DNA from: Bacillota bacterium
GTDB lineage: Bacteria; Bacillota; Proteinivoracia; UBA4975; VEMY01
Reading direction: 5' to 3'
Length of the DNA: 38,540 nucleotides
Assembly (NCBI GenBank): GCA_009711825.1
Contig: VEMY01000068.1
Span: 1 to 38,540, forward strand
The notes under the pieces are model-generated. The model was not told where the DNA came from and made no database searches. It saw only the letters and a program-made list of their open reading frames with translations. This document shows positions 1,715 to 25,732 of this stretch, in pieces. The position numbers were made by a program, and so were the translations under genes. Within the stretch, counting starts at the first letter, position 1. Each line of letters starts with the position of its first letter.

Positions 1715-1942
1715 GGCGGGGCCGAAACCCCTTGTGGTTCTAAGGAGCAAACCTTCATTTTCGAGCATCGCCTGTTTTCGTCTATCATTGGTGCTTTGAA
1801 AACCACTAAAATATCCTTCACCCCCTGAGTTTATTGATTCGAGCATCGCCGGGGTTTTTCCAACACCAGCGATGCTCGATTACTTCGAATGCCGAAATTC
1901 CTAAAATCATGCTACCACATTATACCATAACGGATGGTACAA
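1715..1942 (-). promoter_or_regulatory. CRISPR leader
   Basis: This AT-richer, non-coding stretch lies between the stop of cas2 and the first repeat. In the transcribed (minus) direction it holds an extended -10 promoter at its far end, an inverted pair and one further direct copy of an 11-bp word (1761-1772, 1839-1849, 1869-1879), and a GGGG-TTTCGG-CCCC palindrome that abuts the first repeat. Leaders direct both transcription and Cas1-Cas2 integration; assigning the repeated words to integration is inference. Confidence 0.85.
1761..1879 (-). repeat. Three-copy 11-bp word in the CRISPR leader
   Basis: TCGAGCATCGC occurs on the plus strand at 1761-1771 and 1839-1849, exactly 78 bp apart. Its perfect reverse complement is at 1869-1879. 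The second and third copies can form an 11-bp stem with a 19-nt loop. No T-run follows on either strand, so this is not an ordinary terminator. Binding sites for an integration-host or array regulator are the likeliest reading. Confidence 0.7.
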
Positions 1943-1947
1943 TTAAA
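1919..1947 (-). promoter_or_regulatory. Leader promoter with palindrome over the -10
   Basis: On the minus strand an extended -10, TATGGTATAAT, has its TATAAT hexamer at 1924-1919. A weak -35 (TTTAAT) lies 17 nt upstream at 1947-1942, inside the last codons of cas2. The palindrome TACCAT-N5-ATGGTA (1923-1939) covers the -10 and part of the spacer, so a bound protein would block RNA polymerase. The WYL regulator promoter has the same 11-bp extended -10. Confidence 0.6.
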
Positions 1948-2227
1948 CTATTATGTCCCGGTCTCCCGTTGCGTCAGGTATCATACCTACCCGACGTACT
2001 GTCTCTTTGCACTTGCTGCAAAGGTTAAAGAAAGCTATGCTATCTTCTTTGTGATTGATCATTTTTGATAAATGTGCTTCCAGCCAAACGATGTCTTCAT
2101 CTCTTAAGTTGCCCTCAAAGACGCTATACTGAATTCGGGTCGCATAATTCTTTAAAAGTTTAAAAACCTGGGTGCGACGTCTGTCATTAGCAATATCATA
2201 GACTATTACAATATTCTTCAGCTTCAT
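1943..2227 (-). CDS. cas2: CRISPR-associated endoribonuclease Cas2
   Basis: Cas2 is the structural partner of Cas1 in the spacer-integration complex. The 94-residue protein has the family's typical length and opens with the ferredoxin-fold strand ending in the conserved YDI (Asp11), followed by an RRR patch and the YSVFEG strand. The ATG at 2227 overlaps the TGA of cas4-cas1 by ATGA, so the two are translationally coupled. It is the last cas gene before the leader, and its final codons also carry the leader promoter's weak -35. The assignment is secure from family motifs, length and context. Confidence 0.97.
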   Translation of the reverse strand: MKLKNIVIVYDIANDRRRTQVFKLLKNYATRIQYSVFEGNLRDEDIVWLEAHLSKMINHKEDSIAFFNLCSKCKETVRRVGMIPDATGDRDIIV

Positions 2228-3825
2228 CGGACCAAAAACGCCTTGTAATCAGGCAACTCTCCCCTGATAACCTTAGCAAGGAATCGCGCCTGCAATTCAA
2301 TAGTTCGTCTATAGGGAAGCGTATATTCAAAAACCGGATGATTAATTTCTTGAGCCATTCGTTGTTGATACGCCATAAAAAACCGCTTCCTACCCGACTC
2401 CTTTAGTTGGATGCCCCCAAAATAGTCCTCAAAGTCCTCGATGGCTATAACGCCCTTGTTGATAACGGTCAAAACAACCGAGTCAACTATAATGCTGCGA
2501 AATTCCTCCATGAGATCCAGAGCCAACGCCGGGCGACCATAGTGTGCAACATGATAAATCCCCAGATATGGGTCTAAGCCTGCCTGCATTAAGGAGGAAG
2601 TAACATCCTTCGTAAGCATGGCATAACCAAAACTGAGCAGGGCGTTTACGGGATCTTTGGGGGGCCGTCGGTTACGGTTAGTAAAATCAAACGTTGTCTC
2701 TTCCTTAAGAAGCGAACCAAACACACTAAAGTAATTCCGTGCAGCGTTTCCCTCAAGTCCTCGTAGACTATCTAGCGACTCAACTTCTGTTGCCTTCTGA
2801 CCTATAATCCCAAGCTGCCGAGCGCTATCAGCAATTTTCTCATCATCGTTTCCCCGCTCATAACGCTTTAACATTGTCCGCATATTGCCAACTTTGCCTG
2901 AAACAATCTTTTTTGCTATAGCTAACCGCCAATCTTCATCCAGGGACATACGGAATTGGTCTTGCCGAAGCAGAATATTACGGTTCCAGCACGGATTAAG
3001 CCAGCCTTCTAGTCGACCGCCCCTTGTTATAAAAAAGGTGGGCACTCCTTTACGTAGCAAGTTAGTCAGCAAACTGGCAGATGCATTCACTCCATTGGCC
3101 ACCACAACCTGGTCCACATCTGTGAGCGGCACATCCGCTATTTTATCATTGTCCTGAGTTACCACTATTCGTTCGCCTCGTTTACGCAAATAAGCTCCTG
3201 GGGTATCAACATAAAGAGTGCGGCCCAGATTTATTCCGGGTAAAGGTCGCGCTGGTTTAGTTCCTGCATTAAGACTATCAACCTCTTCATGTAGGCAACG
3301 GGTCGCCAAGCTACACCCGTTACATCGGGAATCTGCAACAGGGTTTGGGACTTCCCCCGACTGGATTATTCGTCTCGCCTCACGAAGGGTTAACCGTGTT
3401 GTCTCCCTTAGTCCTTCATCGATCCAGATTTCCTGACGGCGCTTACTGGCAGCATAATAGACATAACCTTTCTCTATATCCTGCTGCAAATGTTCTTCCA
3501 ACAACATGGCCTGGCAACATAGCTGTACTGCATCATTTAGCTTGTTACCGCGGCTACCAGACTTGAACTCAACAGGATAATATTGTCCATCTTTCTCTTC
3601 CACCACATCGAGGATTCCTGACAGGCCTAGGTTTTCAGAACTGACATGAATACGCCTGTATTGCACATACTCGCCCCTGTCCACCTGACCATAGGCATCC
3701 CGTCTCTCTTCCTCAGCGACACCCTTCTCTACAAAATAGTTAGTGTCCTCAGCACCTTCCACAACCCGGTAGTAATAGTTGCGTGGGCAATAGAGCAGCT
3801 CAGCCACACCGGAAACCGGCAGCAA
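2224..3825 (-). CDS. cas4-cas1: Cas4-Cas1 fusion protein (adaptation)
   Basis: One 533-residue protein joins the Cas4 nuclease that trims prespacers to the Cas1 integrase. Residues 1-180 are Cas4: Cys13 plus Cys168, Cys171 and Cys177 for the Fe-S cluster, and the PD-(D/E)XK residues Asp73, Glu86 and Lys88. Residues from about 195 are Cas1, with catalytic Glu358 (in GLEGN), His425 (in GIYH) and Asp437 (in ALDLMEEFR). The fusion is well known in type I-G and V-B and less common in I-B. The start is uncertain: no ATG is in frame. The TTG at 3825 is usable, but a strong purine-rich site (GGGGGAGAG) sits about 6 nt before an in-frame ATA at 3840, which would add five residues. The gene follows cas3 by 11 nt and overlaps cas2. 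Confidence 0.95.
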   Translation of the reverse strand: MLPVSGVAELLYCPRNYYYRVVEGAEDTNYFVEKGVAEEERRDAYGQVDRGEYVQYRRIHVSSENLGLSGILDVVEEKDGQYYPVEFKSGSRGNKLNDAVQLCCQAMLLEEHLQQDIEKGYVYYAASKRRQEIWIDEGLRETTRLTLREARRIIQSGEVPNPVADSRCNGCSLATRCLHEEVDSLNAGTKPARPLPGINLGRTLYVDTPGAYLRKRGERIVVTQDNDKIADVPLTDVDQVVVANGVNASASLLTNLLRKGVPTFFITRGGRLEGWLNPCWNRNILLRQDQFRMSLDEDWRLAIAKKIVSGKVGNMRTMLKRYERGNDDEKIADSARQLGIIGQKATEVESLDSLRGLEGNAARNYFSVFGSLLKEETTFDFTNRNRRPPKDPVNALLSFGYAMLTKDVTSSLMQAGLDPYLGIYHVAHYGRPALALDLMEEFRSIIVDSVVLTVINKGVIAIEDFEDYFGGIQLKESGRKRFFMAYQQRMAQEINHPVFEYTLPYRRTIELQARFLAKVIRGELPDYKAFLVR

Positions 3826-3836
3826 TGGTGCTTCAG

Positions 3837-6152
3837 TTATTTTTCTCTCCCCCTCTCAAAACCAAACTCCGGAGAGTAGGGTAAATCCAAAAACCAGAGT
3901 TTGTTTTTATCGTAACCGTAATCCTGAAACAACCAGACGGCAACCCGGACCCCGTAGTCGGCAATAACATCTCGATTGTCTTTTGCTAACACTTCTCGCT
4001 CATAACAGGCGGGAATTACTGTTACTGTTGAATTGGGAATATCCCGAACCTGGAAACTTCCGGCAGAAGACTCCTCACCTTCATCTCCGTAGCGTTCTTT
4101 TGGCGTACGACCAAACACTATGTCTTCCAGAATCATCTCGCGCATAACCGAATCGCACAAATCCGGCGAATCAGTAAAGACCTGGTCAACCCAAGTTTGG
4201 GCTGTGGCGTAAGTATAATCACCCTGGACAACCTGCCAGCTGCGCAGCAGCCATTCCCGTTGAATCGGCAACCCGTAGGGCAAAAAGTCTTTTTCGTCCT
4301 GCCAGTCCAGCGGGAAAAGATGCAGGTGATAATCATGATTGGCCGGCAGATAATTGCGGGCTTGACAGCCCGGACAATCACAGCTGTTGTTGTCCGGCAA
4401 TTTTCCTTTGCGATGTAACCTGCCTCCGCGCTGAACGATACTATCCACCGGAGCAGCTTGGCTGTACATAACATCCGCGCTGATGTCCAGACTCAGTTCA
4501 CAAACCTGGGTACTGACTAAAAGCACGCCCTCACTATCGCTCAAGCCCCATTTTGCAATCAACTCTCTTTGTTCGGCGGTTCGCTCAGAAACAGGTTCAA
4601 ACAGTGCTTTGACCAAGCGCTCCTTATCCGAACGGTCACAACGACGGAACTGGGAGTGGTAACATACAATATTCACTTTCGGGAACTCTTCTGCCAACTT
4701 CTGGGCCAGTTTCTGGGCAAGCCCTACCCGGTTTACAACGAGCATCTGCTTGCTGCCCAGATAATGTTTGACTAGGGACAGTAGCTGTGTTGATAAATTA
4801 CCCTCTGCACTCATAATCGGCTGATCTTCTTTAATAACGGTGTACGGTCGTGCAGGTATTTGCTCATGTTGATTAATTACTTGGTATGAGCCTCCGGCTT
4901 GCTGTTGCAGACGGTCAAGCACTACCTGGGGCATGGTCGCTGTCATAACCATGTGGGGAATGTGCAGATCGCGCATCAGCTCCAGACATTGGCCGATTTT
5001 ATTGAGTGTAAAGTGGTCATAATAATGAACCTCATCAAAGATTACCGCGGCAGTGAAGATATTGCCGAAGGAACGATCGGCATATTTATAGCTGTGTAAC
5101 AACGAATACAGCAGATGATCCACTGTGGATACGGTCACAGGCAGGTTATAGAAAGTGTTTTGGTATTTCTGCTGTCGCTTCCAGGTATCCCGTTCTCCAT
5201 CCGGTTCCAGACGCAACACACTTTCAACTTCTGAATGATAAATTCCCCTTAACTTGTCAGGAATACCATATTTACCGGGCAGATCCCAGTACATCGAATT
5301 GGTAGTGAACTGAGTTGGCAAAGTGAAGATAATTCGGTCGGCCTCATCAGCCCGGATTTTATCCATGGCGAAGGTAAGAGCGGCCCCGGTCTTACCCACA
5401 CCGCAACCGGCCCGAAGGATCAAATTACCAGTTGTAGCTGCCACTTGTCGTTGAATTTCATTGGGACTTGTTGCGACTTCCGTCTGATTAAACCCTTTTA
5501 CGGCCCCCCAGTGGAAGCGAATCATGCCTCCCCCGCCAGTCAGGTTGGCGCTGGCTTCGTTATCGGCTAAGCGTAATTGGGTATGGAACAGGCAGTAGAG
5601 CGCTTTAAAGCGAAGCCGTTGTTCTGAGTCCAGCCCGGCAACCATTCTTTGCAGCTTATTGACGATTCTTTGTCCTTCAGCGCCAGTAAACTCCGCCTTG
5701 GAGATTGGAGGCAAATCTAAATCCGCAAGCACTGCGTTTATATGTTGAAGTTCTGCGCCAATCCGCCCCAAAGCTGTTGTCCTAGCATCTTGAAAACTGC
5801 CGTTGTGCAGTTGCCCATGGTGGGACAGTATGGCCAAGAGCATGGCTAAAGCAAAAAGGTCCTGCTTACCTTTATATGCTTCTTTAGCCATCAGCATCGA
5901 GAACAACGTATGTGTGATTTGCGGCCCCTGACCGCGCAAATAACGCTGCCAGGGGCCTGTGCCTTTGCCCAAATCATGGGCGGCCGCCATAAATTCCATT
6001 ATTTCTTCCAAGCCGTCAACCGGCAAGCCAAGTTGCTTCAAGCGTGCTTGCCAAACCGACAACGAACGACGAATAATTCTCAACATCTTTTCCCGGGTCA
6101 ACTCGCTATGCCCGGCCAAAGATTGTTCCGGTTTCGTCTTGGCCAAGAGCAT
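3837..6152 (-). CDS. cas3: CRISPR-associated helicase-nuclease Cas3
   Basis: Cas3 is recruited by Cascade to a bound target, then unwinds and degrades it. The N-terminal HD nuclease shows His15 (AGHSEL), His59-Asp60 (AHDLGKG) and the SHHG motif near 111. The superfamily-2 helicase follows, with Walker A GCGVGKT near 250, DEVH at about 373-376, the TAT motif, and motif VI QRGGRLHR near 574-581. A small CDCPGC pair follows motif VI. The chosen ATG at 6152 shares one base with the cas5 stop (TGATG) and has a GGGTGG-like site upstream. An in-frame ATG at 6185 would add 11 residues but has its GGAGG only one base away, too close to work. At 771 residues, the length is normal for a fused HD-helicase Cas3. 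Confidence 0.97.
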   Translation of the reverse strand: MLLAKTKPEQSLAGHSELTREKMLRIIRRSLSVWQARLKQLGLPVDGLEEIMEFMAAAHDLGKGTGPWQRYLRGQGPQITHTLFSMLMAKEAYKGKQDLFALAMLLAILSHHGQLHNGSFQDARTTALGRIGAELQHINAVLADLDLPPISKAEFTGAEGQRIVNKLQRMVAGLDSEQRLRFKALYCLFHTQLRLADNEASANLTGGGGMIRFHWGAVKGFNQTEVATSPNEIQRQVAATTGNLILRAGCGVGKTGAALTFAMDKIRADEADRIIFTLPTQFTTNSMYWDLPGKYGIPDKLRGIYHSEVESVLRLEPDGERDTWKRQQKYQNTFYNLPVTVSTVDHLLYSLLHSYKYADRSFGNIFTAAVIFDEVHYYDHFTLNKIGQCLELMRDLHIPHMVMTATMPQVVLDRLQQQAGGSYQVINQHEQIPARPYTVIKEDQPIMSAEGNLSTQLLSLVKHYLGSKQMLVVNRVGLAQKLAQKLAEEFPKVNIVCYHSQFRRCDRSDKERLVKALFEPVSERTAEQRELIAKWGLSDSEGVLLVSTQVCELSLDISADVMYSQAAPVDSIVQRGGRLHRKGKLPDNNSCDCPGCQARNYLPANHDYHLHLFPLDWQDEKDFLPYGLPIQREWLLRSWQVVQGDYTYATAQTWVDQVFTDSPDLCDSVMREMILEDIVFGRTPKERYGDEGEESSAGSFQVRDIPNSTVTVIPACYEREVLAKDNRDVIADYGVRVAVWLFQDYGYDKNKLWFLDLPYSPEFGFERGREK

Positions 6153-6811
6153 CAGAACACCACCCGCCTGTTCCCGGCGACCCATGCCTCCAACGGCTGA
6201 TCAAGCTCCAGTTTGGGTGCCAAGTAAAACGTCCTGTATTCGACGCCAGTCCATGAGCGCTTGCCCTTTGCCATCTTGAAACCAATGGGCAGGTAAACGG
6301 TTTGGCTCTCATTCGTTGGCTTAACACCTGTCTCCACGGGCAGGGCGCCGTGGAGAACGGTCGCCTGTTCTTTAGATTCGGCGTGCATTTCCACCTGGTC
6401 AATCTCGACCAAATCATCACTTTCCCCCAAAGACAGTGGGTAGACAGGGTTAATGAGGGCGGCTGCAATCTGTTGGGCCAACCTGTCCTCCGCCAATAAG
6501 TACATTCGAAACTGGGGTTGGAGCAATTTCTGCCGAATTAACAAGGTCCGCCGATCCGGGTTACGACTGTCCCGCTTAATAATCCGGGAATAGGTTTCAA
6601 TTATGTCACCTTCTGCCTCCAAACCTACATTAATCTGGAGTTGTGACATCAGGTCATAATGGTCTGCGGGGATGCCCAAGGCACAACCAACCAGCCCGAA
6701 CAGCGTAGTCGGCGGCGGCACAGGATAACTGAAATTAACATTGATGGTGTATGGCATCCGAAATGAGCACCAAAAGGGCACGTTGAGTCGAGCCGTGACA
6801 AGCGATTTCAT
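6152..6811 (-). CDS. cas5: Cascade subunit Cas5 (type I-B)
   Basis: Cas5 caps the 5' handle of the crRNA in the Cascade complex. The 219-residue protein has the RAMP-type beginning of Cas5: an N-terminal strand (SLVTARLNVPF), then YPVPPPTTLFGLVGCALGI, which matches the conserved proline-threonine-glycine turn of the family. The ATG at 6811 is preferred because a GGCGGTGG site lies at proper spacing; a GTG nine bases upstream is possible. It sits 12 bp after the stop of cas7 and is coupled to cas3. The subfamily is assigned mainly from its neighbours Cas7/Cst2 and Cas8b1/Cst1. Confidence 0.93.
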   Translation of the reverse strand: MKSLVTARLNVPFWCSFRMPYTINVNFSYPVPPPTTLFGLVGCALGIPADHYDLMSQLQINVGLEAEGDIIETYSRIIKRDSRNPDRRTLLIRQKLLQPQFRMYLLAEDRLAQQIAAALINPVYPLSLGESDDLVEIDQVEMHAESKEQATVLHGALPVETGVKPTNESQTVYLPIGFKMAKGKRSWTGVEYRTFYLAPKLELDQPLEAWVAGNRRVVF

Positions 6812-6823
6812 CGCCGCCACCGC

Positions 6824-7732
6824 CTATAGCAACGCTTTGAGAGACTGGATGACCTTGTGAACCGGCATTACCTCCACCCGATGATGACCCAAAGTCTCAC
6901 GCACTGCAGGCCAGTTTGCTACCAGACCAGGAATACCGCCAAAAAACACCTTGTGACCTAAATCCTTGTTTTCTTGTAATGCCACATTTAGAGTATCGAC
7001 TTGGATAGTGCCATCATCGTTTAACTCCAGCGCTTTCAAACCCCGCTGATTATATGTGTCTTGTACAATCGCTAGCAACATATCCGGGGCCAAGGAAGCG
7101 GCTGCCCGGGCCTGTTTGGCAAATCCGCTGAGGTTAAACACCCCATCCAGGACAGCAGATATCCGTGCTTTGCGTTCCTCCTCGCCGATTTCTACTGCAA
7201 CATCCCAACCAGTGACCCGTTGCTCCTTGTTCTTCCCCTCAATGACGGGCCTGCGCATCAGGCCGACATTGGCCACATCCAAGACCAGCGCGAAGCGATA
7301 GATATTTTCTGCCATCTGCACGTTGGCAATACGCATGTCTTTGCTAGCCCGTTCATCCTTATCCATTACACTTGAACGGGTTAAAAGATCCGTTACTATC
7401 TCTGCTGGAATCTGACCGAGCCCGGGGGTCACCTTCAGCGGCGACCAGCGCCGGTCTCCGCCTTCACCTTCCTTGGTGGCCAGAAAACCACGGAGGTCGC
7501 AGCCCCAACAATTTTCCACATCAGCACAAGGGCGTTCACTGACACATTTGAACTTGTCCGGATAGGTGCGTGCAATTGTGTCAAAAAGGGCTGTACGGGT
7601 TGCCTGCCCGGAAACATACGGCTTGGAGCCGTTGGCATATGTCTTCAGTTCGGTAAGGTTTCCACTGCCTTGACCGGAGTTGAGATTACTCAAGTCCGCC
7701 TTGGTCAGCCACACTAAGGTTATCGCCTTCAT
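6824..7732 (-). CDS. cas7: Cascade backbone subunit Cas7 (Cst2/DevR family)
   Basis: Cas7 polymerises along the crRNA to form the Cascade filament. The 302-residue protein begins KAITLVWLTKADLSNLN and has the glycine-rich YVSGQATRTAL segment typical of Cst2/DevR, an early cysteine-rich insert (CADVENCWGC, around residues 69-78), and the GDRRWSPLKV stretch. The start ATG overlaps the cas8 stop by ATGA, so stoichiometry is probably set by coupled translation. It ends with TAG. Length and motifs match type I-B Cas7. Confidence 0.95.
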   Translation of the reverse strand: MKAITLVWLTKADLSNLNSGQGSGNLTELKTYANGSKPYVSGQATRTALFDTIARTYPDKFKCVSERPCADVENCWGCDLRGFLATKEGEGGDRRWSPLKVTPGLGQIPAEIVTDLLTRSSVMDKDERASKDMRIANVQMAENIYRFALVLDVANVGLMRRPVIEGKNKEQRVTGWDVAVEIGEEERKARISAVLDGVFNLSGFAKQARAAASLAPDMLLAIVQDTYNQRGLKALELNDDGTIQVDTLNVALQENKDLGHKVFFGGIPGLVANWPAVRETLGHHRVEVMPVHKVIQSLKALL

Positions 7733-9387
7733 TTAGCTTCGCCTCCCTGTTCTTTTTTCTCATTGCGTAGGTTATGCATAGCTGCTAAGCTGGCATAGAT
7801 CAGCATCGTGTCCCGTATCTCCGCGACGTTTTCTTTGTTTACCGACGACAAAATATTTTCCACCCGGCTCTCCTTGGGAGCCCATACATCCTCGCCGCCG
7901 AACTTTTTGGTGGTAGCGGCAATCTTGTGCATTTTGAGGAATGCATCCTTAAGTACTCGACGTAAAGTTGTCTCGTCGTGGGCATTATTGATGCTAGTCA
8001 TTAGACCAACGTCAGAAGCAAATACCCGCCCGATTATACCGGACACAGTCCTTACATCTTCCAGCAATTGTTTTTCCAACACATTATCCACCTCCAGGGC
8101 ATAATCAAAGAATGGTCGGGCAAAACCCGTCGCAAGGGGCCTTCCCTCTTTATACAGGTCAAACAATGCTGTCGAGACGTGGCGCCAGTTTCTGCTCACC
8201 AGACCCTCACTGAACAATTCACGACTTCTGCGGTTGCCTGCAGACATAAACCGCAGTAAATGACGATACAAGTCTCCTTCCTTCCCATCCCCGTACTGAA
8301 GCGACTCCACCAACTTGAACAGACGGCTGTTCACTTGTAGAAAGTTGAAATGGGCGAAAATTACGTTGGTCCCCTTGCTGTACCGATAAACAACCCAACG
8401 CCCGACCTTTGTTTGCTTCGCCGGCTCGAGACCAAAATCCCAATCTTCCAATCCCGTTTCCTCGTGATACGTATAACGGTGACGCAAATTCCAGTAGACG
8501 CCGATAAGCGAAGTGTAGAGATCAGCGTCCCCACCAGGCAGCTCCCGAATGTTGGTCCGGTAACTTAGAAGCAAAGGGGAAGCCATATCAAGACTGTTGT
8601 TGCGAATTAAATGTCGCACTTCAGCTAATAGGGTCAGGTCATCCACCTGAGGCACCAATAAATGCGTCCGCCCCTCAACGAAATAGGGCAAATCTGCACA
8701 AGCAGCTGCAAAGGTGTTAAGCAAGTTGCAAGTGGGGCACATTGATGCTACGACCACAGAACCCCGGTGGCCACGCACCACGTTGTTATGATGCTGATTA
8801 TAGAACGGGTTTTTGTTCTGACGCATCTCATACTCCACTGCCGCCTCCCTGCCACATAAGCTGCAAGGCTTGTCCCCGCCGGACCGCCACTGGTCAAAAA
8901 ACGCTCGTACATCCTCATCCACTGCCTTACCTAGCTTCTCCCAGTCCTTCTTTATGCCCGGATAGTTGCGCTTCAATGATGCCGTCACTTTTGCTCCTGG
9001 TTTTATTTTTGGCACCCGTAAATCCTCGGCATCGACGTTTTTGCGTTGTCGTTTTGCCTCAAAATGACGCAGACGCTCCACTGCATATTGCCGTTCCTTG
9101 TCGCTTAACTTCCACTCCTGGCCTGGGTCCAAAAATCCTGTTTCCAACCTTTTTGCTCCGTAACCCAACAACTTAACTTCAAGTGGACGCAAAACACAGC
9201 GATTTAGCTGCTCGACCAGGTAGTTCCGCAGCAAGTTTGAAGCAACTTCAACGTTGGTAACAGAAAGCCTCAACATACCACTCTCCAACTCCCCGTCAAG
9301 TTCAGGGTTATCCTCAGCGACTTGAGCGAGAGCAACTAAACCCCAGTCCATCCAAGGATCTCCGGTACGAGTAATGACTATCTCCAT
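7729..9387 (-). CDS. cas8b1: Cascade large subunit Cas8b1 (Cst1, CXXC-CXXC)
   Basis: This large subunit recognises the PAM and recruits Cas3. The 552-residue protein carries the paired zinc motif that names the Cst1 family: CSLC at 175-178 and CPTC at 217-220, separated by a His-rich segment. The N-terminus (MEIVITRTGDPWMDWG) is also typical. The ATG at 9387 is chosen because an ideal GGAGGTG lies six bases upstream; reading further upstream would run through the promoter and operator. It is the first gene of the second cas transcription unit, with cas7 following by a four-base overlap. The family identity fixes the locus as subtype I-B of the Tneap kind. Confidence 0.95.
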   Translation of the reverse strand: MEIVITRTGDPWMDWGLVALAQVAEDNPELDGELESGMLRLSVTNVEVASNLLRNYLVEQLNRCVLRPLEVKLLGYGAKRLETGFLDPGQEWKLSDKERQYAVERLRHFEAKRQRKNVDAEDLRVPKIKPGAKVTASLKRNYPGIKKDWEKLGKAVDEDVRAFFDQWRSGGDKPCSLCGREAAVEYEMRQNKNPFYNQHHNNVVRGHRGSVVVASMCPTCNLLNTFAAACADLPYFVEGRTHLLVPQVDDLTLLAEVRHLIRNNSLDMASPLLLSYRTNIRELPGGDADLYTSLIGVYWNLRHRYTYHEETGLEDWDFGLEPAKQTKVGRWVVYRYSKGTNVIFAHFNFLQVNSRLFKLVESLQYGDGKEGDLYRHLLRFMSAGNRRSRELFSEGLVSRNWRHVSTALFDLYKEGRPLATGFARPFFDYALEVDNVLEKQLLEDVRTVSGIIGRVFASDVGLMTSINNAHDETTLRRVLKDAFLKMHKIAATTKKFGGEDVWAPKESRVENILSSVNKENVAEIRDTMLIYASLAAMHNLRNEKKEQGGEAK

Positions 9388-9729
9388 CAATTCACCTCCC
9401 TGTAAAAGATGATTAAATTGATTATACAGAGTAGCAGTGACAAGTTGTGTCACGAGGATGTATTTTCTGAATTCTACAGCCTAAAAGTTTTTCCTGCAAA
9501 AAATGGAAAGAGCAAGTCGAATTGACTAGCTTTTTTTAATCTGGTTGCAATTTTAATTATGCCAATAGTAGCAAACTCTACGTAAAATAATTTCTCTATG
9601 GTCAGCAACTTCCGCTTGAAATACTGTCCAGTTTTTCGGAGTTCAGCTTATAGCCGTCAAAATCATAAAGCCCGAGCTCAACTGCCCTAACCATCAAATG
9701 CAACTGTCAAGAGCATTTGAGAACATTAT
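9388..9729. other. Intergenic gap between cas6 and cas8b1 (342 bp)
   Basis: This gap breaks an otherwise tightly packed operon. It contains the cas8b1 promoter/operator near 9421-9453 and, on the minus strand, one short ORF at 9602-9694 (ATG GTT AGG..., 30 codons, acidic, no signal peptide, no good ribosome binding site). The peptide does not match a family I recognise and may be a remnant of a lost gene or chance. The rest is AT-rich with no tRNA-like or terminator structure that I can see. Confidence 0.6.
9421..9453 (-). promoter_or_regulatory. Promoter and palindromic operator of the cas8b1-cas2 unit
   Basis: On the minus strand a consensus TATAAT (9426-9421) has only a weak -35 (CACAAC) 17 nt upstream. 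A perfect palindrome GTGACA-N5-TGTCAC (9437-9453) covers the -35 region and is centred about 31 bp before the predicted start of transcription. That position suits a repressor, or an activator that replaces the poor -35. The start codon of cas8b1 lies 34 nt downstream of the -10. The WYL regulator is the obvious candidate ligand, but this is inferred. Confidence 0.6.
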
Positions 9730-10497
9730 TTACTGCAAACTAGCCTCGCCCATACCCATGCCGGTCTTGTAACCAATGCCGGCAAAGGCAGCGTAATGAG
9801 CCAATGCAATTATTGTCTTTTTTACATCCGGTTCGATGTAGGGGGCAAAAGTATATTCCACACTGCCGGTAAAACCCAACTGGCCATATTTGCTGAACTT
9901 AATAAAGCTTGTCTCCAACTGATAGCGGCTGACCATAAGCCGTGTATCCAACTCCGGTAGATTCAAGCACTCCGGGGCACACCGGTTCCACCGTTCTTTA
10001 AGACTGTTAAAAACTAGCTGCGGCTCAGGAAAAAGCAACTGCTGGCCCTGACTGCGAAACGATGTAGGTGAACTGAAACGAATGGTCAGGTGTTTCGCTT
10101 CCCCGGGCCTTGTTTTCAATTTCTGATAATCACTTTCTAGCAATAGAGTCCATTTCAGCCAGCGACATGTGGCGCTGCCAAGACGCAGGTTGTGCTCGGG
10201 CCGAACCTGTTCCAACATTGGGATAAGAGCTTCCGACATTTCCCTGTTCAGAGCTGCAACAGTAAAGAAATATCTCTGCCCTGACTCTAAGTGAAATCTG
10301 CCCTTAGAGCGCTGTCCACTTCCTCGCAGAGGGGAAAGCGAAAAAGGGTTGCTGTCAGTGTCGTGGATTTTGGTGGCGACGGCGTTATTGGCCAACATGG
10401 CGAAGAAAAGTCCATGACATTCGGTGCCACCCAGTCCATAGACAAAGCCTGGCTCAAGGCACTCTAACTCTAACCGATATTTTTTCAGAACACTCAT
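9730..10497 (-). CDS. cas6: pre-crRNA processing endonuclease Cas6
   Basis: Cas6 cuts the long array transcript within each repeat, 8 nt before the spacer. The 255-residue protein has the RAMP-superfamily layout and ends with the glycine-rich loop AGIGYKTGMGMGEA characteristic of Cas6. A second typical piece is the QLGFTGSVEYTF strand before it. The ATG at 10497 shares a base with the TGA of the WYL gene (TGATG), with GGGGGA nine bases upstream. It is therefore expressed from the WYL promoter, apart from the rest of Cascade. The catalytic histidine cannot be assigned with certainty. The matching repeat handle GTTGAAAG is seen in the array. Confidence 0.93.
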   Translation of the reverse strand: MSVLKKYRLELECLEPGFVYGLGGTECHGLFFAMLANNAVATKIHDTDSNPFSLSPLRGSGQRSKGRFHLESGQRYFFTVAALNREMSEALIPMLEQVRPEHNLRLGSATCRWLKWTLLLESDYQKLKTRPGEAKHLTIRFSSPTSFRSQGQQLLFPEPQLVFNSLKERWNRCAPECLNLPELDTRLMVSRYQLETSFIKFSKYGQLGFTGSVEYTFAPYIEPDVKKTIIALAHYAAFAGIGYKTGMGMGEASLQ

Positions 10498-11453
10498 CAG
10501 TACATATCCCCCATGGCCGCAATCTCGTTTCGCATCGCGTCCCGAAAATCCTGGGGAGACACGACCTCCACATTGGTTCCTTGGCTGAGCAACCACATTT
10601 TAATCCCGCCACCATATACCTCGGCCTCTACCATGTAGACATCGCCAGACTGACTGATAACGCGAGCAGTGGGCAGTCGGTCCAGTGTCGCCTCAAGGGC
10701 CGGTAGCTTAACCCGGATGCGGAGCGTCATTAAATCACCCTTTTGCATAAACTGGATGCGTTTACGGAACTCGCCTTCACTAAACCGTCCATACTGGGCG
10801 CGAAAGTGCCGATCAGTGACTGTATAGCCCTGAATGCGGTCCAGACGGTATACTGTGGGCACAGGGTAAGCTGTACCAACGATATTGGCAATCAGGTAGA
10901 AGTAATAATCGGAAAAAAGCAAGGCCACCGGCTCAATAATTCGCTGCACAGGCATGTTCTCGGTCGCCTTGGTATACGTCAGCTCAACCAACAGACTGCG
11001 CCTGATAGCGTCATTCAAGTCCCACAACGAACGTAGAAGCGCTTTGTCATGGCTAACTGGGGTATAGTGGTGCATTTCGTCCCCGATTGCCTCGCGGACA
11101 ACCTTCTCATCATCGGGGTCGCAAAGCCTGGTTAACTTATTTAGAAGCTTGATTTCCTCCTTATTAAGCGATCTGCTGGCAAGCATGATCTTGGCAATGG
11201 CCAGAATTTCCTCCATGCTCAGCCAAATCTCCATGTCGCGTGGCAGAGCATAGGTGCCCTTGGCACGATCAAACTCTAGCTCTATTCCTGGTATTTCATC
11301 GGCTAGAAAACACTGTATTTCCTCGATATCGCGGTCGAATGTCCTGGTTGACCTGTTGCTGCTGTTGGCCTGTTGCTGCCTGCTGACGGCCTGGCCCCGG
11401 AGCAACTTATAGAATATCGAGAGTACCCGCTGCGCTTTTTCCTGCTTACTCAT
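10497..11453 (-). CDS. WYL-domain transcriptional regulator of the cas locus
   Basis: This 318-residue protein has an N-terminal DeoR-like winged helix (residues about 5-65), a WYL sensor domain from about 140 to 215 (IEPVALLFSDYYFYLIAN, then YRLDRI) and a C-terminal WCX extension. WYL regulators often sit in CRISPR and other defence loci and may sense nucleic-acid ligands. The ATG at 11453 has GGGGGTG seven bases upstream. It is the first gene of a two-gene unit with cas6, and its own extended -10 resembles that of the leader. It could repress or activate the cas8b1 promoter; the direction is not visible in the sequence. Confidence 0.92.
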   Translation of the reverse strand: MSKQEKAQRVLSIFYKLLRGQAVSRQQQANSSNRSTRTFDRDIEEIQCFLADEIPGIELEFDRAKGTYALPRDMEIWLSMEEILAIAKIMLASRSLNKEEIKLLNKLTRLCDPDDEKVVREAIGDEMHHYTPVSHDKALLRSLWDLNDAIRRSLLVELTYTKATENMPVQRIIEPVALLFSDYYFYLIANIVGTAYPVPTVYRLDRIQGYTVTDRHFRAQYGRFSEGEFRKRIQFMQKGDLMTLRIRVKLPALEATLDRLPTARVISQSGDVYMVEAEVYGGGIKMWLLSQGTNVEVVSPQDFRDAMRNEIAAMGDMY

Positions 11454-13291: not shown

Positions 13292-16005
13292 GCGCTGGCC
13301 AGCGACATCCGCACCGACCTGGCCGATGTGCCCCAATTTATCCTCTCGTTGTCCAACGACCAGTACAGTCTCGACGATTTGGCCAGTTATGCCCTGGAAA
13401 TCCAGCAAGCAATTGAGAACGTGGATGGGGTCATCGGGGTAGACATCGATGGCAGCTTGACAAAACAGGTTGTTATCAACGTGGATATCGATGGCTTATA
13501 CTTATACCGGATATCCATGGAAACACTGGTTGCCCTCCTGCAGGCCCAGAATCTCAACATCCCCTCTGGTTCTATTGATTACGACGACAGCAGCATAAAT
13601 GTTAAAACCCCGGCGACCTTTGAGTCCCTACGGGATATCGAGAATATTGTCATCAGTGGCTCCGAGCAAGAAGTTGGGTTTGTGCGCCTGAGTGATGTGG
13701 CAACCGTCAGCATTGAACCCACCGACGATTACTATTTTCGCCACAACGACCAAAATGCCGTGCTTTTGACCGGGTATTTTGAGACCGACACCAACGCCGT
13801 CCTGATTGGCAGGGAGGTGCGCCAGGTAATTGAGGAGCAAAAACAATACCTGCCTCCGGATATCGTGTTTCATGAGTTGGTCTTTTCCCCCGAGGATATC
13901 GACCGCTCGATAAATAACTTCATTATTAATCTGCTGCAAAGCATCGGCCTGATTGTCGTCATCGTCATGATTGGTGTGCGCTTGCGCAACGCCCTGGTGG
14001 TTTCAATAGCGCTGCCCGTCTCAATTCTACTCTCCCTGATTTCTATGTATCTGCTGAATATCGAGTTCCACTTTATCTCCATCGCGGCACTAATTATTTC
14101 CCTGGGAATACTGGTGGATAATGCGATTGTTATCAGCGAGGCGATTCAGCAGCGTATAAACGCCGGCGAGGAAAACTCGCTGCGATTCAGGCGGCAGTTC
14201 AGGAAACGGCACGCCCGATATTTACTTCCACCCTGACGGCAATCATCGCCTTTGGCATCCTCTTGTTTGTTCCCGGAATTATCGGCAAAACAGTGGCCAC
14301 CATCCCGCTAGTGGTGATCGCAACCCTGCTGGCCTCTTATTTTGTGGCCATGTTAATCATTCCGGTATTTGCCTATATCTTCTTCAAGCCGGAATCTCAG
14401 CAACGGGTGGAGAAGGTTTCCCACTCACTACCGAAGCGGTTCTTCGAGACGTTGCTAAACTTTGGCCTCCAGTACCCCCGCCGGGTCATTGCCGGCGCCT
14501 TTGCCACTTTGCTAATCGCCGGGTTGCTCTTTGCCCAATTGGGCATGAGTTTCTTCCCCTACTCGGATAAGCCGATGATCTACATCAATGTGAACACCGA
14601 ATCTCTGAACCTGGCGAAAACCGGCGAAATCCATGACCAAGTCATGGAGGTGCTGGCGGAGTTCGAGGAGATAACCCATGTGGTGTCGGCAGTTGGGGCC
14701 GGCGTGCCCAAGTTTTTCATAACTGCACCGCTTGTTCCCCCCTCCCCGGACACGGCTCAGTTTGTGTTGCAATTGGATTACCGAAACAGTGAGTATCAGG
14801 ATAATGACGCGCTGGGCTTTGCGCTTCAGCAGGCAATGGATCAGCGCATCGTCGGCGCCCAGGTGGAGGTTAAGCACCTGGAGTATTCAATGCCCGCCGA
14901 TGCAAAGCTGGTATTTAATCTCAGCGGCCATGACCTGGATGACCTGATTGATGCCTCGCTCATCGTTCAGGAAGTGCTGGCGGAAATGCCCGGCACCATT
15001 CACGTGCGGGACAATTTCACCCCCAAGGAATACGAATATGTAGTGCGCATTGACGAAGATTACCTTGCCACCAGCGGAATATTAAAGTACAACATCGTCA
15101 AACAAATCAATACTGCTTTGATGGGCGCCACCCCCTCCAGTTACCGGGCCGGAGGCGCAGAGATGGATATTCTCGTGAAAGCAGATATCCGCTCCTTAGA
15201 TGATTTATACCGGCTGCCAATCCAATCTTCCGCCATCGATGCCTATATGCAGCTGAACCAATTGGCCTCAGTGGATATTCAGGCGAGACTGCCTTCAATC
15301 TACCGTCAGAACCGCCAACGGACAATCACTGTGCTCAGCGATGTTTTACCGGGCTACTCCCCTGCCAAACTGGAGTTGGATTTCCGGCGCCTGTACGGAG
15401 AGGAGATTTTGCCCGAAGGGGTGTCCATCGAGTATAGTGGCGAGTTGAAGAATATAACCGACCTGCTTTCCAACCTCGGCTATACGTCACTGGCAGCAAT
15501 TGGCCTAATCTACATGGTACTGCTGGTGCAGTTTAAGCGGTTCAGTAAACCCTGGATTATCCTGACCAGCATTCCACTCCCCCTGACCGGCGTGTTCCTC
15601 GGCCTGTTTATCTTCCAGATCGATATCCAGGCGATGGCACTATTTGGCGCCGTGAGTTTGTTTGGGATTGTCGTCAATAACGGTATCATCTTGACGGAGG
15701 TAATGGACGACGGAGTGCGGTCTGGACTAAGTGTGCAAGATGCCTGCCGTCGGGCTGTTGATATTCGCTACCGGCCAATCATGCTGACCGCCACAACCAC
15801 CTGCGCCGGCCTGGTGCCGCTGATTTTAGGCCGCGATCCGATGACCGCCCCCATGGCTCTGGTCCTCTTTTTCGGACTGATCATGTCCACCGTTCTGACA
15901 ATGGTGATTGTTCCTGTGCTATATTACTTGACTGTCCGGACAGGGGGACAGGTCCCTCGTCCGGCTGCAACTAACTCTGAATTGGTTATCCAGCGGGAAA
16001 TATGA
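13292..16005 (+). pseudogene. Broken RND-family efflux permease (AcrB-like)
   Basis: The inner-membrane pump of the same operon is recognisable over about 905 codons, from TDLADVPQFILSLS in the first porter domain to VIVPVLYYLTV in the last membrane helix. Conserved pieces include GILVDNAIVISEAI in the TM4 region and its pseudo-repeat FGIVVNNGIILTEV. The first 110-120 residues, including TM1, are missing: the reading begins at a fusion point with the adaptor gene near 13292. At 14182 one base is lost (CTG-CGA where CTG-GCG-ATT restores the frame), so the ORF fragments are 13328-14236 and 14263-16005. The last 20 residues run through a dispersed palindrome. A functional pump cannot be made from this sequence as read. 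Confidence 0.88.
15936..15964 (+). repeat. GGGGACAGGTCC palindrome, copy 1
   Basis: The arms CCGGAC and GTCCGG enclose GGGGGACAGGTCCC. It lies inside the last codons of the RND gene and reads as an inverted near-copy of the element at 17099, so the two flank the MoxR gene. Confidence 0.7.
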
Positions 16006-21611: not shown

Positions 21612-23000
21612 ATGTCATATTATTTAAAGACAAATCGAGTGTTTACGTCCCTCAAACGTTATGCATGGCTTTTCCTGCCGGTGGTTGTGTTGGGCGGGCT
21701 TTGGTTCCCTGTTTTGGGCCTGCTCCTGATTCCGGTGATGCTCACCCTGGCGGTGCTGGGCTTTTTTGGCGGCAATGTTTGGTGCGGCAAAATCTGCCCC
21801 CACGGCAGCCTGTTTGACCAATATGCTGCTCTCTTAAGCCGCAACCGCCCGATTCCCAAGGTGCTGCGTTCCCTCTGGGTGCGGATTCCTGCCTTTGCCT
21901 GGTTTGGCTATATGCTGGGCATGCGCCTGATGCGGGTGGCCCAACTCTGGGGCGAGCTGAACTTTTGGGACCGCCTGGGCTATATCTTTGTCATGAATTA
22001 CCTGGTGGTGACCATTGTCGGCACCACATTGGCGCTGGTCATCAGTCCCCGGGCCTGGTGCAATTTCTGCCCCATGGGCACACTGCAGCGTATTTCCCTG
22101 TGGTTGGGGCGAATAACAGGCGGCAATAAAAAGACCGAGCAGATGGTGACAATTGAAAGCACTGATAAATGTCATACATGCGCCACCTGCGCCCGAGTCT
22201 GCCCGATGCATTTGGAGCCCTACCGCAAGTTCAATGAGAATAACCAGTTTGACAGCTATGACTGCATTCGCTGCTCCACCTGTGTCGCCTATTGCCCGGC
22301 GGACATCCTCTCCCTGAAAACCCGGGGGGCGGCGCAAGCACAAAAGCAGGCTGCAGGCAACCGGGGTTACGAAAGTGCTCGGACAATCCAGTCCGGCAGC
22401 GCTGGTAGCCGTGATGTAGTCTACGAAGTTAAATTGATCAACGGACAGGAAGTGAGCCGTAAACAGACCGATGTGGAAGTTACCCAGCAACCGGAAGAGA
22501 GAATTATTATGCCGGGCAGTGGACGATGGCCGCTGACGCCAACTAGTTCATTCCGCTTCCCGATGAACAGCGGCAGAATTTCCAGTCGTTTTGGGGACTC
22601 CCGGCCTGGCCAACGCACCCATATGGGCTTGGACATAGCCGCTTCTAGAGGCACTCCGATTTTTGCTGCTGACGATGGGGTCGTCACACGCAGGTCTTAT
22701 GGATCAGGCTACGGCTATTACTTGATTATTGATCATGGCAATGGTTATTCCACACTCTATGCCCATATCAGCCGCTTCCCATCGAATATCTGGTCTGGTT
22801 CCCGGGTAGTGCGGGGTCAGGTAATTGCCTATGTCGGCAACACCGGAGTCAGCACCGGGCCGCATCTGCACTGGGAAGTGCGGCAAAACGGCAATCCACT
22901 CAATCCGCTTAACTTCTTCCGCTACCTCTCTAGTTGTGTAAGCGGATTTTGCCGCCACAGTTTTTTAGGTGTCCTTGACAAAGGGTCCACTTTACTTTAA
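21612..23000 (+). CDS. NapH-type 4Fe-4S membrane protein fused to an M23 peptidase (probable deletion chimera)
   Basis: Residues 1-235 are a NapH/YccM-like electron-transfer protein: several membrane helices, the CxxxCP pairs at 58/62 and 150/153, and two 4Fe-4S motifs (Cys187, 190, 193, 197 and Cys218, 221, 224, 228). After a linker, residues 268-300 match the end of a G5 domain (YEVKLINGQEVSRK). Residues 318-435 are a LytM/M23 zinc peptidase with His337, Asp341 and HLHW (418-421). The ferredoxin part of NapH faces the cytoplasm, whereas M23 acts on peptidoglycan outside, so the fusion is topologically implausible. The G5 domain is cut in half, pointing to a deletion or misassembly near 22390-22410. 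The unusual C-terminal tail (last about 25 residues) also extends past the normal M23 end. The ATG has AGGAGG eight bases upstream. Confidence 0.8.
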   Translation: MSYYLKTNRVFTSLKRYAWLFLPVVVLGGLWFPVLGLLLIPVMLTLAVLGFFGGNVWCGKICPHGSLFDQYAALLSRNRPIPKVLRSLWVRIPAFAWFGYMLGMRLMRVAQLWGELNFWDRLGYIFVMNYLVVTIVGTTLALVISPRAWCNFCPMGTLQRISLWLGRITGGNKKTEQMVTIESTDKCHTCATCARVCPMHLEPYRKFNENNQFDSYDCIRCSTCVAYCPADILSLKTRGAAQAQKQAAGNRGYESARTIQSGSAGSRDVVYEVKLINGQEVSRKQTDVEVTQQPEERIIMPGSGRWPLTPTSSFRFPMNSGRISSRFGDSRPGQRTHMGLDIAASRGTPIFAADDGVVTRRSYGSGYGYYLIIDHGNGYSTLYAHISRFPSNIWSGSRVVRGQVIAYVGNTGVSTGPHLHWEVRQNGNPLNPLNFFRYLSSCVSGFCRHSFLGVLDKGSTLL

Positions 23001-23052: not shown

Positions 23053-23081
23053 TTGACTAAATAAACTGAATACGTTACAAT
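23053..23081 (+). promoter_or_regulatory. Promoter of the AT-rich two-gene cassette
   Basis: TTGACT (23053-23058), 17-nt spacer, TACAAT (23076-23081). The transcript would start near 23088, just before a GGGGGGG ribosome binding site and the ATG at 23112. Confidence 0.7.
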
Positions 23082-23111
23082 AATACAAATATTATATTTG
23101 GGGGGGACTAG

Positions 23112-24032
23112 ATGAAAAGATTTCTCAGATTAGTTTTGGTTACATTAATAGTTTTTGTCATTTCTGCTCCATCGGCAAATGCAGACACTGAAAATGTACA
23201 TGAAATTGACGTGGATATCCAAATTATAGAACATACAGAACTCAAAACTCATCTTATCGTTAATGATGTCACTATTATTCTTGAGACAAATGACGAGCTA
23301 ACACAAGGGGTTTTAACTATTAACGAAGGGAATTTGTTTAACTCTGAGAGTCATCAAATATTCAACTCTAAACATGGCGATGAATATTTAGTGTCTATAG
23401 TTAGCACAGCCGATAATGGTCTGGAAAAAACGATTGCCAATTTTTCCTCAGAGATAAATTTACTACAAGCTGATGCTTTGAGTGGAAACATCGCGGTTGA
23501 TGAAGCTCCTCAGTCCTCAAGCAACTTTTTTTGGGATAGAGTAAGGTTTGTTCCTCAGTCCCATAATATCCCATATCCTCGGCCGGATGTGGACCATTAC
23601 GGAATGAGCTATTGGCTAAGTTACCGGATTGATGGTTTAAGATTGCACCATTATATGATAGGGAGTCCTGTCGCCCAAACTTTAATGGGCCTTGCTCCAG
23701 CAGCATTAGGTGCGGCTTTAGGGGCTTATATTGGTGGAGTAGGCGGTGCTGTGGTTGGGACATTGCTTGGGTTTGTTGTTTCTACGGTTACACCTGCTAT
23801 GTTTCTAGATGACCGTAATTGTTTATGGTTCTGGGTAGGACAGACCGTAAATTACAGGGAGTTAGGCGGGGTATTGGCCCACCACCCCGATTATTTTAGG
23901 GTGGCCAGGTACACATTGTGGAATTATTACGGAACTTTGTATAATTCGCCTGTTGCCTCGGGTGGAGGTGGTGGCGGAGGAGGAGTTCCTCCGGTGATAC
24001 AAGGCAGTAATATAATCTTGTTTACAGAATAG
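23112..24032 (+). CDS. Secreted glycine-zipper protein, bacteriocin-like layout
   Basis: A 306-residue protein with a clear signal peptide (KRFLRLVLVTLIVFVISAPSANA, cleavage near residue 24). An acidic beta-rich region of about 110 residues follows, perhaps a propeptide. The mature part has a Trp/His/Tyr-rich segment (FFWDRVRFV; YPRPDVDHYG), a glycine zipper able to insert into membranes (ALGAALGAYIGGVGGAVVG), LDDRNCLWFWVG, and a tail with eight consecutive glycines. The AT content is visibly higher than in neighbouring genes, suggesting transfer. The gene is followed eight bases later by a small membrane-protein gene. I do not recognise an exact family; export and membrane activity are inferred from composition. 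Confidence 0.7.
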   Translation: MKRFLRLVLVTLIVFVISAPSANADTENVHEIDVDIQIIEHTELKTHLIVNDVTIILETNDELTQGVLTINEGNLFNSESHQIFNSKHGDEYLVSIVSTADNGLEKTIANFSSEINLLQADALSGNIAVDEAPQSSSNFFWDRVRFVPQSHNIPYPRPDVDHYGMSYWLSYRIDGLRLHHYMIGSPVAQTLMGLAPAALGAALGAYIGGVGGAVVGTLLGFVVSTVTPAMFLDDRNCLWFWVGQTVNYRELGGVLAHHPDYFRVARYTLWNYYGTLYNSPVASGGGGGGGGVPPVIQGSNIILFTE

Positions 24033-24039
24033 AGAAATA

Positions 24040-24468
24040 ATGTTTGTCAAGTCGTGGGCGTCGGTGGTTGGTCTTTATCTAGTACTGTCAATCCTTTATA
24101 TAATAATGTCAGTAAATCGGATACTAAGTTCTTATGAAGTTGAATCGTCATGGAGTTTGATTGCACTGGGTGTCATTTTTTTTGGACTGGGCATGATTTA
24201 TTGCACTGTGGGCCAACGGATTAATCTTGTTCCCAAGCTGAAACGGGTAGCTAATCGATTCACCGAGTGTGACGGGAAGCCGGGCATGCATTTGCGGACG
24301 GTTTGGATTATACTCGCAAGCTTTATTCTGCTCTTAGGTCTGCTTATCCTCTTGCGGGTTTTTACCTCTGTCAATGCTGAGCACATAGATTGGCTATTTA
24401 TTGGCACTGCCGCGTATACCGGTTTTTTCGCTGGCCTGGTTATTAGGGCGGAAAAAGTTGCATCATAA
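24040..24468 (+). CDS. Four-helix membrane protein, possible immunity partner
   Basis: A 142-residue protein with four hydrophobic helices (about residues 7-25, 40-58, 87-106 and 117-134) and a basic cytoplasmic loop between the second and third. It begins seven bases after the stop of the secreted glycine-zipper gene and shares its promoter; its ribosome binding site (AGAG) is weak, so coupled translation is likely. Size, topology and position are like those of bacteriocin immunity proteins, but no family match is known to me. A palindromic repeat directly follows its stop and can serve as terminator. Confidence 0.65.
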   Translation: MFVKSWASVVGLYLVLSILYIIMSVNRILSSYEVESSWSLIALGVIFFGLGMIYCTVGQRINLVPKLKRVANRFTECDGKPGMHLRTVWIILASFILLLGLLILLRVFTSVNAEHIDWLFIGTAAYTGFFAGLVIRAEKVAS

Positions 24469-24472
24469 CTTT

Positions 24473-24507
24473 GGGACGCGGGGACAGGTCAATTGTCCCC
24501 CCGTCCC
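24473..24507. repeat. GGGGACAGGTCC palindrome, copy 3
   Basis: GGGACG and CGTCCC arms flank GGGGACA...TGTCCCC around a short AT-rich centre. It sits between two convergent genes where a terminator is expected and may act as one, though it lacks a T-run. Confidence 0.75.
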
Positions 24508-24514
24508 TGCCCTT

Positions 24515-25732
24515 TTAGTTGGCATTGCCTGTGAAGTGGAAATCGTTGATTTTCAGTGCCGGCACGTAATAGTTGCCGAAGAAGAAGCTGGTGCGTTGGC
24601 GATCGCTAGACACTGCTTCAATCTTATTGAATGCTTGGAGCATACTTTCGGTAAAACGCATGTTTTTAACGGAACCGGTGATCTTACCTTTTTCGACTGT
24701 AAACACACCGTCCCGGGTAAGGGCCGTTAACTGGGCAGTTCGGGGGTTGACGGGGTTCATGTAATGAAAGCGGGTGATAAGCAGCCACTGTTGGGTTCCG
24801 GCAATAATATCGGATAGGCTCTCCTTGCCGTTGGTCATTACCAGGTTTAAGGGCATGCCGCCATAGGCTGGCATATTTACCGAATGGCCGGTACTTGGGC
24901 AACCCGCTTTTTGGGCGCTGGCCATGTCATATGTCAGGTCTTTGGCCACTCCTTGCTGGATAATTGTTACTTGCTGCCGGGGAGTGCCTTCAAAGTCGAA
25001 GGGCAAGCGCATGGTATTTTCATTTGTATAATCATCGATGATTGTAATTCTAGGGTCAAAGACCGCTACCCCCTGCTTACCGGTGAGGAAGCTAATTTGA
25101 TTCTGGACGCTTTTACCGGAAAAGCCCAGGTAGGACAAGAAAGTCATCAAGCCGCCTACCGCCGGCTGCTCGAGAATTACTGTATATGCACCCGGTTTCA
25201 GGGTCCCTGGATTCTGATTAAGCCGGGCTTTCTCATAGGCCCGGGCGAATGCGCCGGGGAAATCAAAATCTTCAACTCGGCTAGACTGTGTCTCTCCGTA
25301 ACCCGAGCCATTTTCTCCGGCGACGATTGTGGAAAAGGAAGCATTATTGTTCCTTGAAAAACGGCGGATTCCCTGGGAATTTCCCACGCTGATTTGGCTT
25401 GTGGTAATTGTTAGGGCGCCATAGGCCAGATAGTTTTCACTGAGGGTGTCTAAACACTCCTTAACCAGTTTGGCCCGGGATTCCACGTCGTAGGCTGTAT
25501 CCAATTGGGGATTAAACTCATCCTGGGCAATCTCTGCCGGTGCATCAACTAGCGGCGGCTGGACTTCGCCCTCCGGCAGGAAAGCAAGTTTGGCAATCGC
25601 TTGCTGGGTGGCTTCTCTTAACCCCTCAGGGGTAAGGATATTTGTTTTAATTTCACTCCGCTTATTCTCGGTGGTGATGATAATCGTTATTTCCGTGTTG
25701 TCCTCATAATAGAGATAGGGAAATTTGGCCAC
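24515..25732 (-). pseudogene. tldE: 5'-truncated TldE/PmbA-family metallopeptidase
   Basis: TldD/TldE degrade unstructured or modified peptides. The 405-codon reading matches TldE from EDNTEITI onward: SPEGLREA-like helix, AYGALTITTSQISVGNSQG, SRVEDFDF, the central LEQPAVGGLMTFLSYLGFSGKSVQNQISFLTGK, and the C-terminal FFFGNYYVPALKI. TldE lacks the HExxxH of TldD, as here. About 45-50 N-terminal residues of a normal protein are missing. The only usable start, a GTG at 25732, lies inside an intrinsic terminator hairpin and has no proper ribosome binding site. No tldD is adjacent, although the pair usually forms one operon. The simplest reading is a deletion that removed tldD and the 5' end of tldE. 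Confidence 0.8.

Follow-up and report, generated by a model that had tools for sequence, protein, structure and literature searches.

Organization of the locus

The stretch of DNA that we analysed (38,540 nt, hereafter the window) carries two plus-strand genes, ORF1 (23112–24032, 306 aa), a candidate toxin with the features of a secreted glycine-zipper protein, and ORF2 (24040–24468, 142 aa), a candidate immunity protein, which starts 7 nt past the end of ORF1, the spacing given in an earlier note on this DNA. The 306-codon frame of ORF1 is intact, with no frameshift, and a G-rich stretch lies at the ribosome-binding position ahead of it. By inspection, the protein begins with a Sec-type signal peptide (MKRFLRLVLVTLIVFVISAPSANA; residues 1–24, 23112–23183, hydrophobic window 4–22) that ends in an AxA-type site, SANA/D, followed by an acidic, prodomain-like region (residues 26–130, 23187–23501) with 19 acidic and 3 basic residues, for which a family-model search gave no match. 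The toxin-like domain then begins with an N-terminal flank (residues 131–185, 23502–23666) that aligns with a homologue in genome G450, is conserved there and carries the motifs P-Y-x-x-P-D and Y-G-x-S; it continues with an uncharged glycine-zipper hairpin (residues 186–232, 23667–23807), which has GxxxG spacing and two hydrophobic windows, and ends with a C-terminal flank (residues 233–281, 23808–23954) in which the motif D-x-x-x-C-x-W-F is common to the G450 protein. Signal peptide, acidic region and zipper had all been named in the earlier note and are borne out here; the poly-Gly end that it described does exist as a run of eight glycines (residues 284–291, 23961–23984), but this run stops 15 residues short of the C-terminus. 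ORF1 contains a single Cys, and an AlphaFold prediction of the protein alone (pLDDT 37) was useless as a model.

ORF2 has four hydrophobic windows, in agreement with the four-helix membrane protein proposed earlier, and AlphaFold gave an all-helical fold at low confidence (pLDDT 58). The palindrome reported after ORF2 was recovered as a stable hairpin at 24473–24507 (+; −26.8 kcal/mol, z −4.1), between ORF2 and a convergent PmbA/TldD-like gene at 24515–25732. This hairpin is a probable transcription end, but it did not score as a T-tailed terminator of the classical type. Its core has one exact copy in the genome, plus one site with three mismatches, and a dispersed repeat was ruled out on the basis of this single exact copy.

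Other parts of the window hold genes that deserve separate mention. A type I-B-like CRISPR-Cas locus occupies 1–11453, with 23 repeats (CTTTCAACTCCCCGAGGGGAATTAGCTTTGTTTAGAC; period of about 74 nt), after which minus-strand genes encode a fused Cas4-Cas1, Cas3, Cas5, Cas7, a weakly matching Cas8b, Cas6 and a WYL regulator. By inspection, an RND-type transporter gene seems to be split into two adjacent ORFs (13328–14236 and 14263–16005), perhaps by a frameshift. A single plus-strand ORF at 21612–23000 combines a 4Fe-4S membrane-type (NapH-like) part with G5 and M23 peptidase domains, and joining an iron-sulfur protein to a cell-wall peptidase in this way is an unusual fusion.

Promoter and base composition

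A candidate sigma-A-type promoter (TTGACT, 17-nt spacer, TACAAT; 23053–23081, +) is well placed ahead of ORF1 and agrees with the consensus at 10 of 12 positions. Sites of this type occur four times in the region, however, against 3.7 expected by chance, and the claim that the pair has its own promoter is therefore not upheld. Base composition was compared with that of 125 ORFs, each with a minimum length of 250 codons, in 237 kb of this genome. The GC3 of ORF1 (0.346) is the lowest of the 125 (mean 0.574, sd 0.072), and a single ORF of the sample falls below its GC content of 0.417, which argues that ORF1 is likely an acquired gene of foreign composition. ORF2 is milder (GC 0.444, GC3 0.451), so that the two genes do not have one common base composition; the AT-richness noticed earlier thus applies fully to ORF1 and only mildly to ORF2.

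Relatives of the ORF1 domain in other genomes

Searches of Pfam, NCBIfam, PHROGs and PADLOC gave no match for ORF1 or ORF2, and ORF1 also had none among solved structures. Neither protein matched defence-system models, no named record or curated family was found for either, and the ORF1 zipper reached curated glycine-zipper models only weakly and below threshold. Relatives of the two proteins were likewise not found in genome contigs, viral contigs, plasmids and phages, by scans that are sensitive to close relatives only. Weak matches of full-length ORF1 in G011 and G074 were set aside as chance after examination, and the matches of full-length ORF2 in a whole-genome search, all weak, were set aside as chance collectively.

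Relatives of the ORF1 domain were sought in about 800 draft genomes, among which the family of the window's organism is represented by one genome. This yielded one clear homologue, in G450, and one degenerate relative of that homologue, in G592, a genome of the same genus. In a set of 399 genomes of another class of the same phylum, a query of ORF1 residues 135–283 matched G450 over nearly the whole domain, with an E-value of 7.6e-8. Because a shared zipper composition could produce such a match, the N-terminal flank, the zipper and the C-terminal flank were compared separately with 5000 shuffles each. The N-terminal flank scored 71 (shuffle maximum 53), the zipper 55 (a score that 6 of the 5000 shuffles reached) and the C-terminal flank 45 (which 29 shuffles reached), and the motifs P-Y-x-x-P-D, Y-G-x-S and D-x-x-x-C-x-W-F are all common to ORF1 and G450. 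Matches with E above 0.005 were set aside as chance, as were G628 and G794, which have a short zipper ORF with the flanks absent; in G491, G597, G615, G633 and G660 the match covered only the zipper part, and D-x-x-x-C-x-W-F was missing from these loci.

In G450 the zipper domain stands in-frame behind the truncated N-terminal part of an IS4-family transposase (fusion at L042:6435–7367), and hence the zipper gene has lost its own 5′ half. The fusion is followed after 64 nt by an intact membrane ORF of 73 aa; a second copy of the locus, 12 kb away, retains of the zipper gene only its 3′ end, together with the same membrane ORF, 99% identical. The zipper gene of G592 is truncated and frameshifted (scores against G450 of 91 and 65, with shuffle maxima of 62 and 44) and too degraded to show all the motifs of ORF1 and G450; behind it comes a membrane ORF of 75 aa, a homologue of the one in G450 (score 74, shuffle maximum 56). 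In G421, a 73-aa membrane ORF that is 70% identical stands without a zipper gene. Thus every relative of ORF1 outside this genome is broken, and the downstream membrane ORF stays open. On these alignments, ORF1 belongs with a small domain group formed by G450 and G592, and a small multi-pass membrane gene follows the domain directly in the window (7 nt), in G450 (64 nt) and in G592, a recurrence to be read with the small number of loci and the shared ancestry of G450 and G592. A comparison of ORF2 with the 73-aa membrane family of G450 and G592 gave no relationship, which suggests that the partner is exchangeable.

ORF2 and its paralogue

This genome contains a paralogue of ORF2 (G000:C3, L012:7008–7454, minus strand) with 81% protein and 83% DNA identity, and no ORF1 was found beside it when the locus was checked. 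The duplicated segment (24022–24460, + strand; 83% DNA identity to L012:7037–7454) begins in the last codons of ORF1 and otherwise covers ORF2 alone. Homology starts at 24022, within those last codons, at the position that corresponds to the start codon of the paralogue, which has its own ribosome-binding site and a TTG start. This position hence marks where the two genes came together or, alternatively, separated, and ORF2 may be no more than a gene copy that came to lie after ORF1. The idea of a self-contained cassette does not survive this result. Co-occurrence of the two genes, which the earlier note had put forward as a check, gave a divided answer: the pair of ORF1 and ORF2 was found nowhere else in the searched collections and the paralogue of ORF2 stands without ORF1, but in another class the ORF1 domain again stands ahead of a small membrane gene, one unrelated to ORF2.

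By inspection of translations, the paralogue is flanked by a gene resembling cyclic-2,3-diphosphoglycerate synthetase and by a ferritin-like/encapsulin-like pair; in the latter, which adjoins the paralogue at L012:5649–6793, the ferritin-like cargo gene lies directly upstream of the encapsulin-like shell gene. An apparent tldD-pmbA pair is located about 2 kb from the paralogue (L012:2353–5165). TldD/PmbA proteases mature some bacteriocins; the presence of PmbA/TldD-type genes near both copies of ORF2 could be coincidence.

These observations bear on two readings in which the genes do not form a functional pair. ORF1 might be another exported protein of the surface or envelope (an adhesin, a coat protein or a membrane-anchored structural protein), with an unrelated ORF2 that arrived by duplication. 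Glycine zippers are frequent in harmless membrane and lipoprotein families, and both the solitary paralogue and the start of the duplicated segment at the former start of ORF2 agree with such an origin. Against it, a relative of the ORF1 domain directly precedes a membrane gene in two genomes, and a patchy, broken and low-GC distribution is unlike that of a housekeeping envelope protein; we consider this explanation improbable, if still the strongest of the competing ones. A decaying, acquired ORFan that is functionless at present, next to an ORF2 that is kept or drifts for reasons of its own, seems very unlikely to us. No close relative of ORF1 appeared in anything searched and the distant ones are pseudogenes, the ribosome-binding site of ORF2 looks weak on inspection, and ORF2 and its paralogue, both with open frames, show a dN/dS of 0.45, all of which would suit decay, but the unbroken frame of ORF1, its signal peptide, its domain motifs and the G-rich stretch ahead of it do not.

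Comparison with known systems

The glycine-zipper toxins CdzC and CdzD of Caulobacter are accompanied by a small immunity protein with three transmembrane segments, CdzI (PMC5380434). The locus described here resembles this arrangement in that a secreted, membrane-active glycine-zipper protein and a small multi-pass membrane immunity protein, the candidate roles of ORF1 and ORF2, are encoded together. CdzC and CdzD are only 84–86 aa long and act as a pair, whereas ORF1 is single and has 306 aa. Moreover, Cdz encodes a type I secretion system at its locus, whereas ORF1 has a Sec signal, and a Pfam scan of the pair and the six surrounding genes found no type I exporter components. No sequence relation to Cdz was found. 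Killing by Cdz needs cell contact; nothing in our results points to the contact dependence that the earlier note had named as one option.

SdpC and YitM of Bacillus subtilis are related toxins with a Sec signal and a C-terminal hydrophobic toxin region, whereas the membrane proteins that give immunity to them, SdpI and YitQ, are unrelated (PMC6818787). ORF1 shares the Sec signal, the N-terminal part and the C-terminal hydrophobic region, and one could take it for a precursor of the same kind, in which the toxin is a peptide cut from about residues 186–240 by extracellular or membrane proteases. The plan of SdpC, with signal, N-terminal part and C-terminal hydrophobic domain (PMC6818787), speaks for this; however, a Pfam scan of the neighbouring genes detected neither the processing genes SdpA and SdpB nor a relative of SdpI, neither ORF1 nor ORF2 matches a family model (for ORF1, in NCBIfam or Pfam), and the flanks before and after the hairpin are kept in G450, a conservation for which an excised peptide offers no obvious reason. 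Such a precursor is therefore an unlikely description of ORF1.

TelE of Streptococcus gallolyticus, an LXG effector of type VIIb, depends on a C-terminal glycine zipper for membrane damage, and the adjacent protein with six transmembrane segments does not protect, whereas the soluble TipE, which has no transmembrane segment, does (PMC10434224). The C-terminal position of the zipper is the same in ORF1, but TelE has an LXG domain and type VII export, in place of the Sec signal of ORF1, and Pfam found no LXG domain in ORF1. A GxxxG-rich hydrophobic helix is also a feature of class II bacteriocins with a double-glycine leader (PF10439); the match of ORF1 to this model remained below threshold (7.3 bits, cut-off 27.1), and leader and size differ. 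Judged by these comparisons, ORF1 and ORF2 may work like Cdz or SDP but are members of neither, nor of the LXG group.

A possible toxin and immunity pair

The reading that we prefer, to which we give a probability of about 0.5, is that ORF1 is a Sec-exported, membrane-damaging antibacterial protein of the bacteriocin-like kind and ORF2 its immunity protein. The signal peptide would carry ORF1 out of the cell, and the acidic N-terminal half may keep the protein inert or aid its folding until proteolysis releases the active part. The C-terminal domain, with the zipper hairpin and the D-x-x-x-C-x-W-F end, would then insert into the membrane of a competitor, presumably the cytoplasmic one, and ORF2, translated just after ORF1, would protect the producer as a membrane-embedded immunity protein. 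Membrane partners that are recurrent, exchangeable and orphaned fit with toxin and immunity genes, and membrane genes that persist without a zipper gene are found both in G421 and, as the ORF2 paralogue, in this genome. The G450 homologue with its conserved flanks, the extreme GC3 of ORF1 and the open frames of both ORF2 copies at a dN/dS of 0.45 also count in favour, and Cdz and SDP provide precedents. The recurrence strengthens the toxin and immunity pair suggested in the earlier note and stops short of proving it. Because the membrane protein next to TelE was a bystander, adjacency of a membrane gene is weakened as proof of immunity, and ORF2 might be behind ORF1 by chance neighbourhood.

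More tentatively, and with the odds somewhat against it, ORF1 may represent a new Gram-positive family of Sec-exported glycine-zipper bacteriocins, in which a conserved C-terminal membrane-inserting domain is combined with interchangeable small membrane immunity proteins that become orphaned after the toxin gene breaks. If this is untrue, ORF1 would be an ORFan adjoining a duplicated membrane gene. If it is true, the motif set described here would serve to find further members, and glycine-zipper antibacterials, whose known export routes are of types I, VI and VII, would extend to Sec secretion in Gram-positive bacteria.
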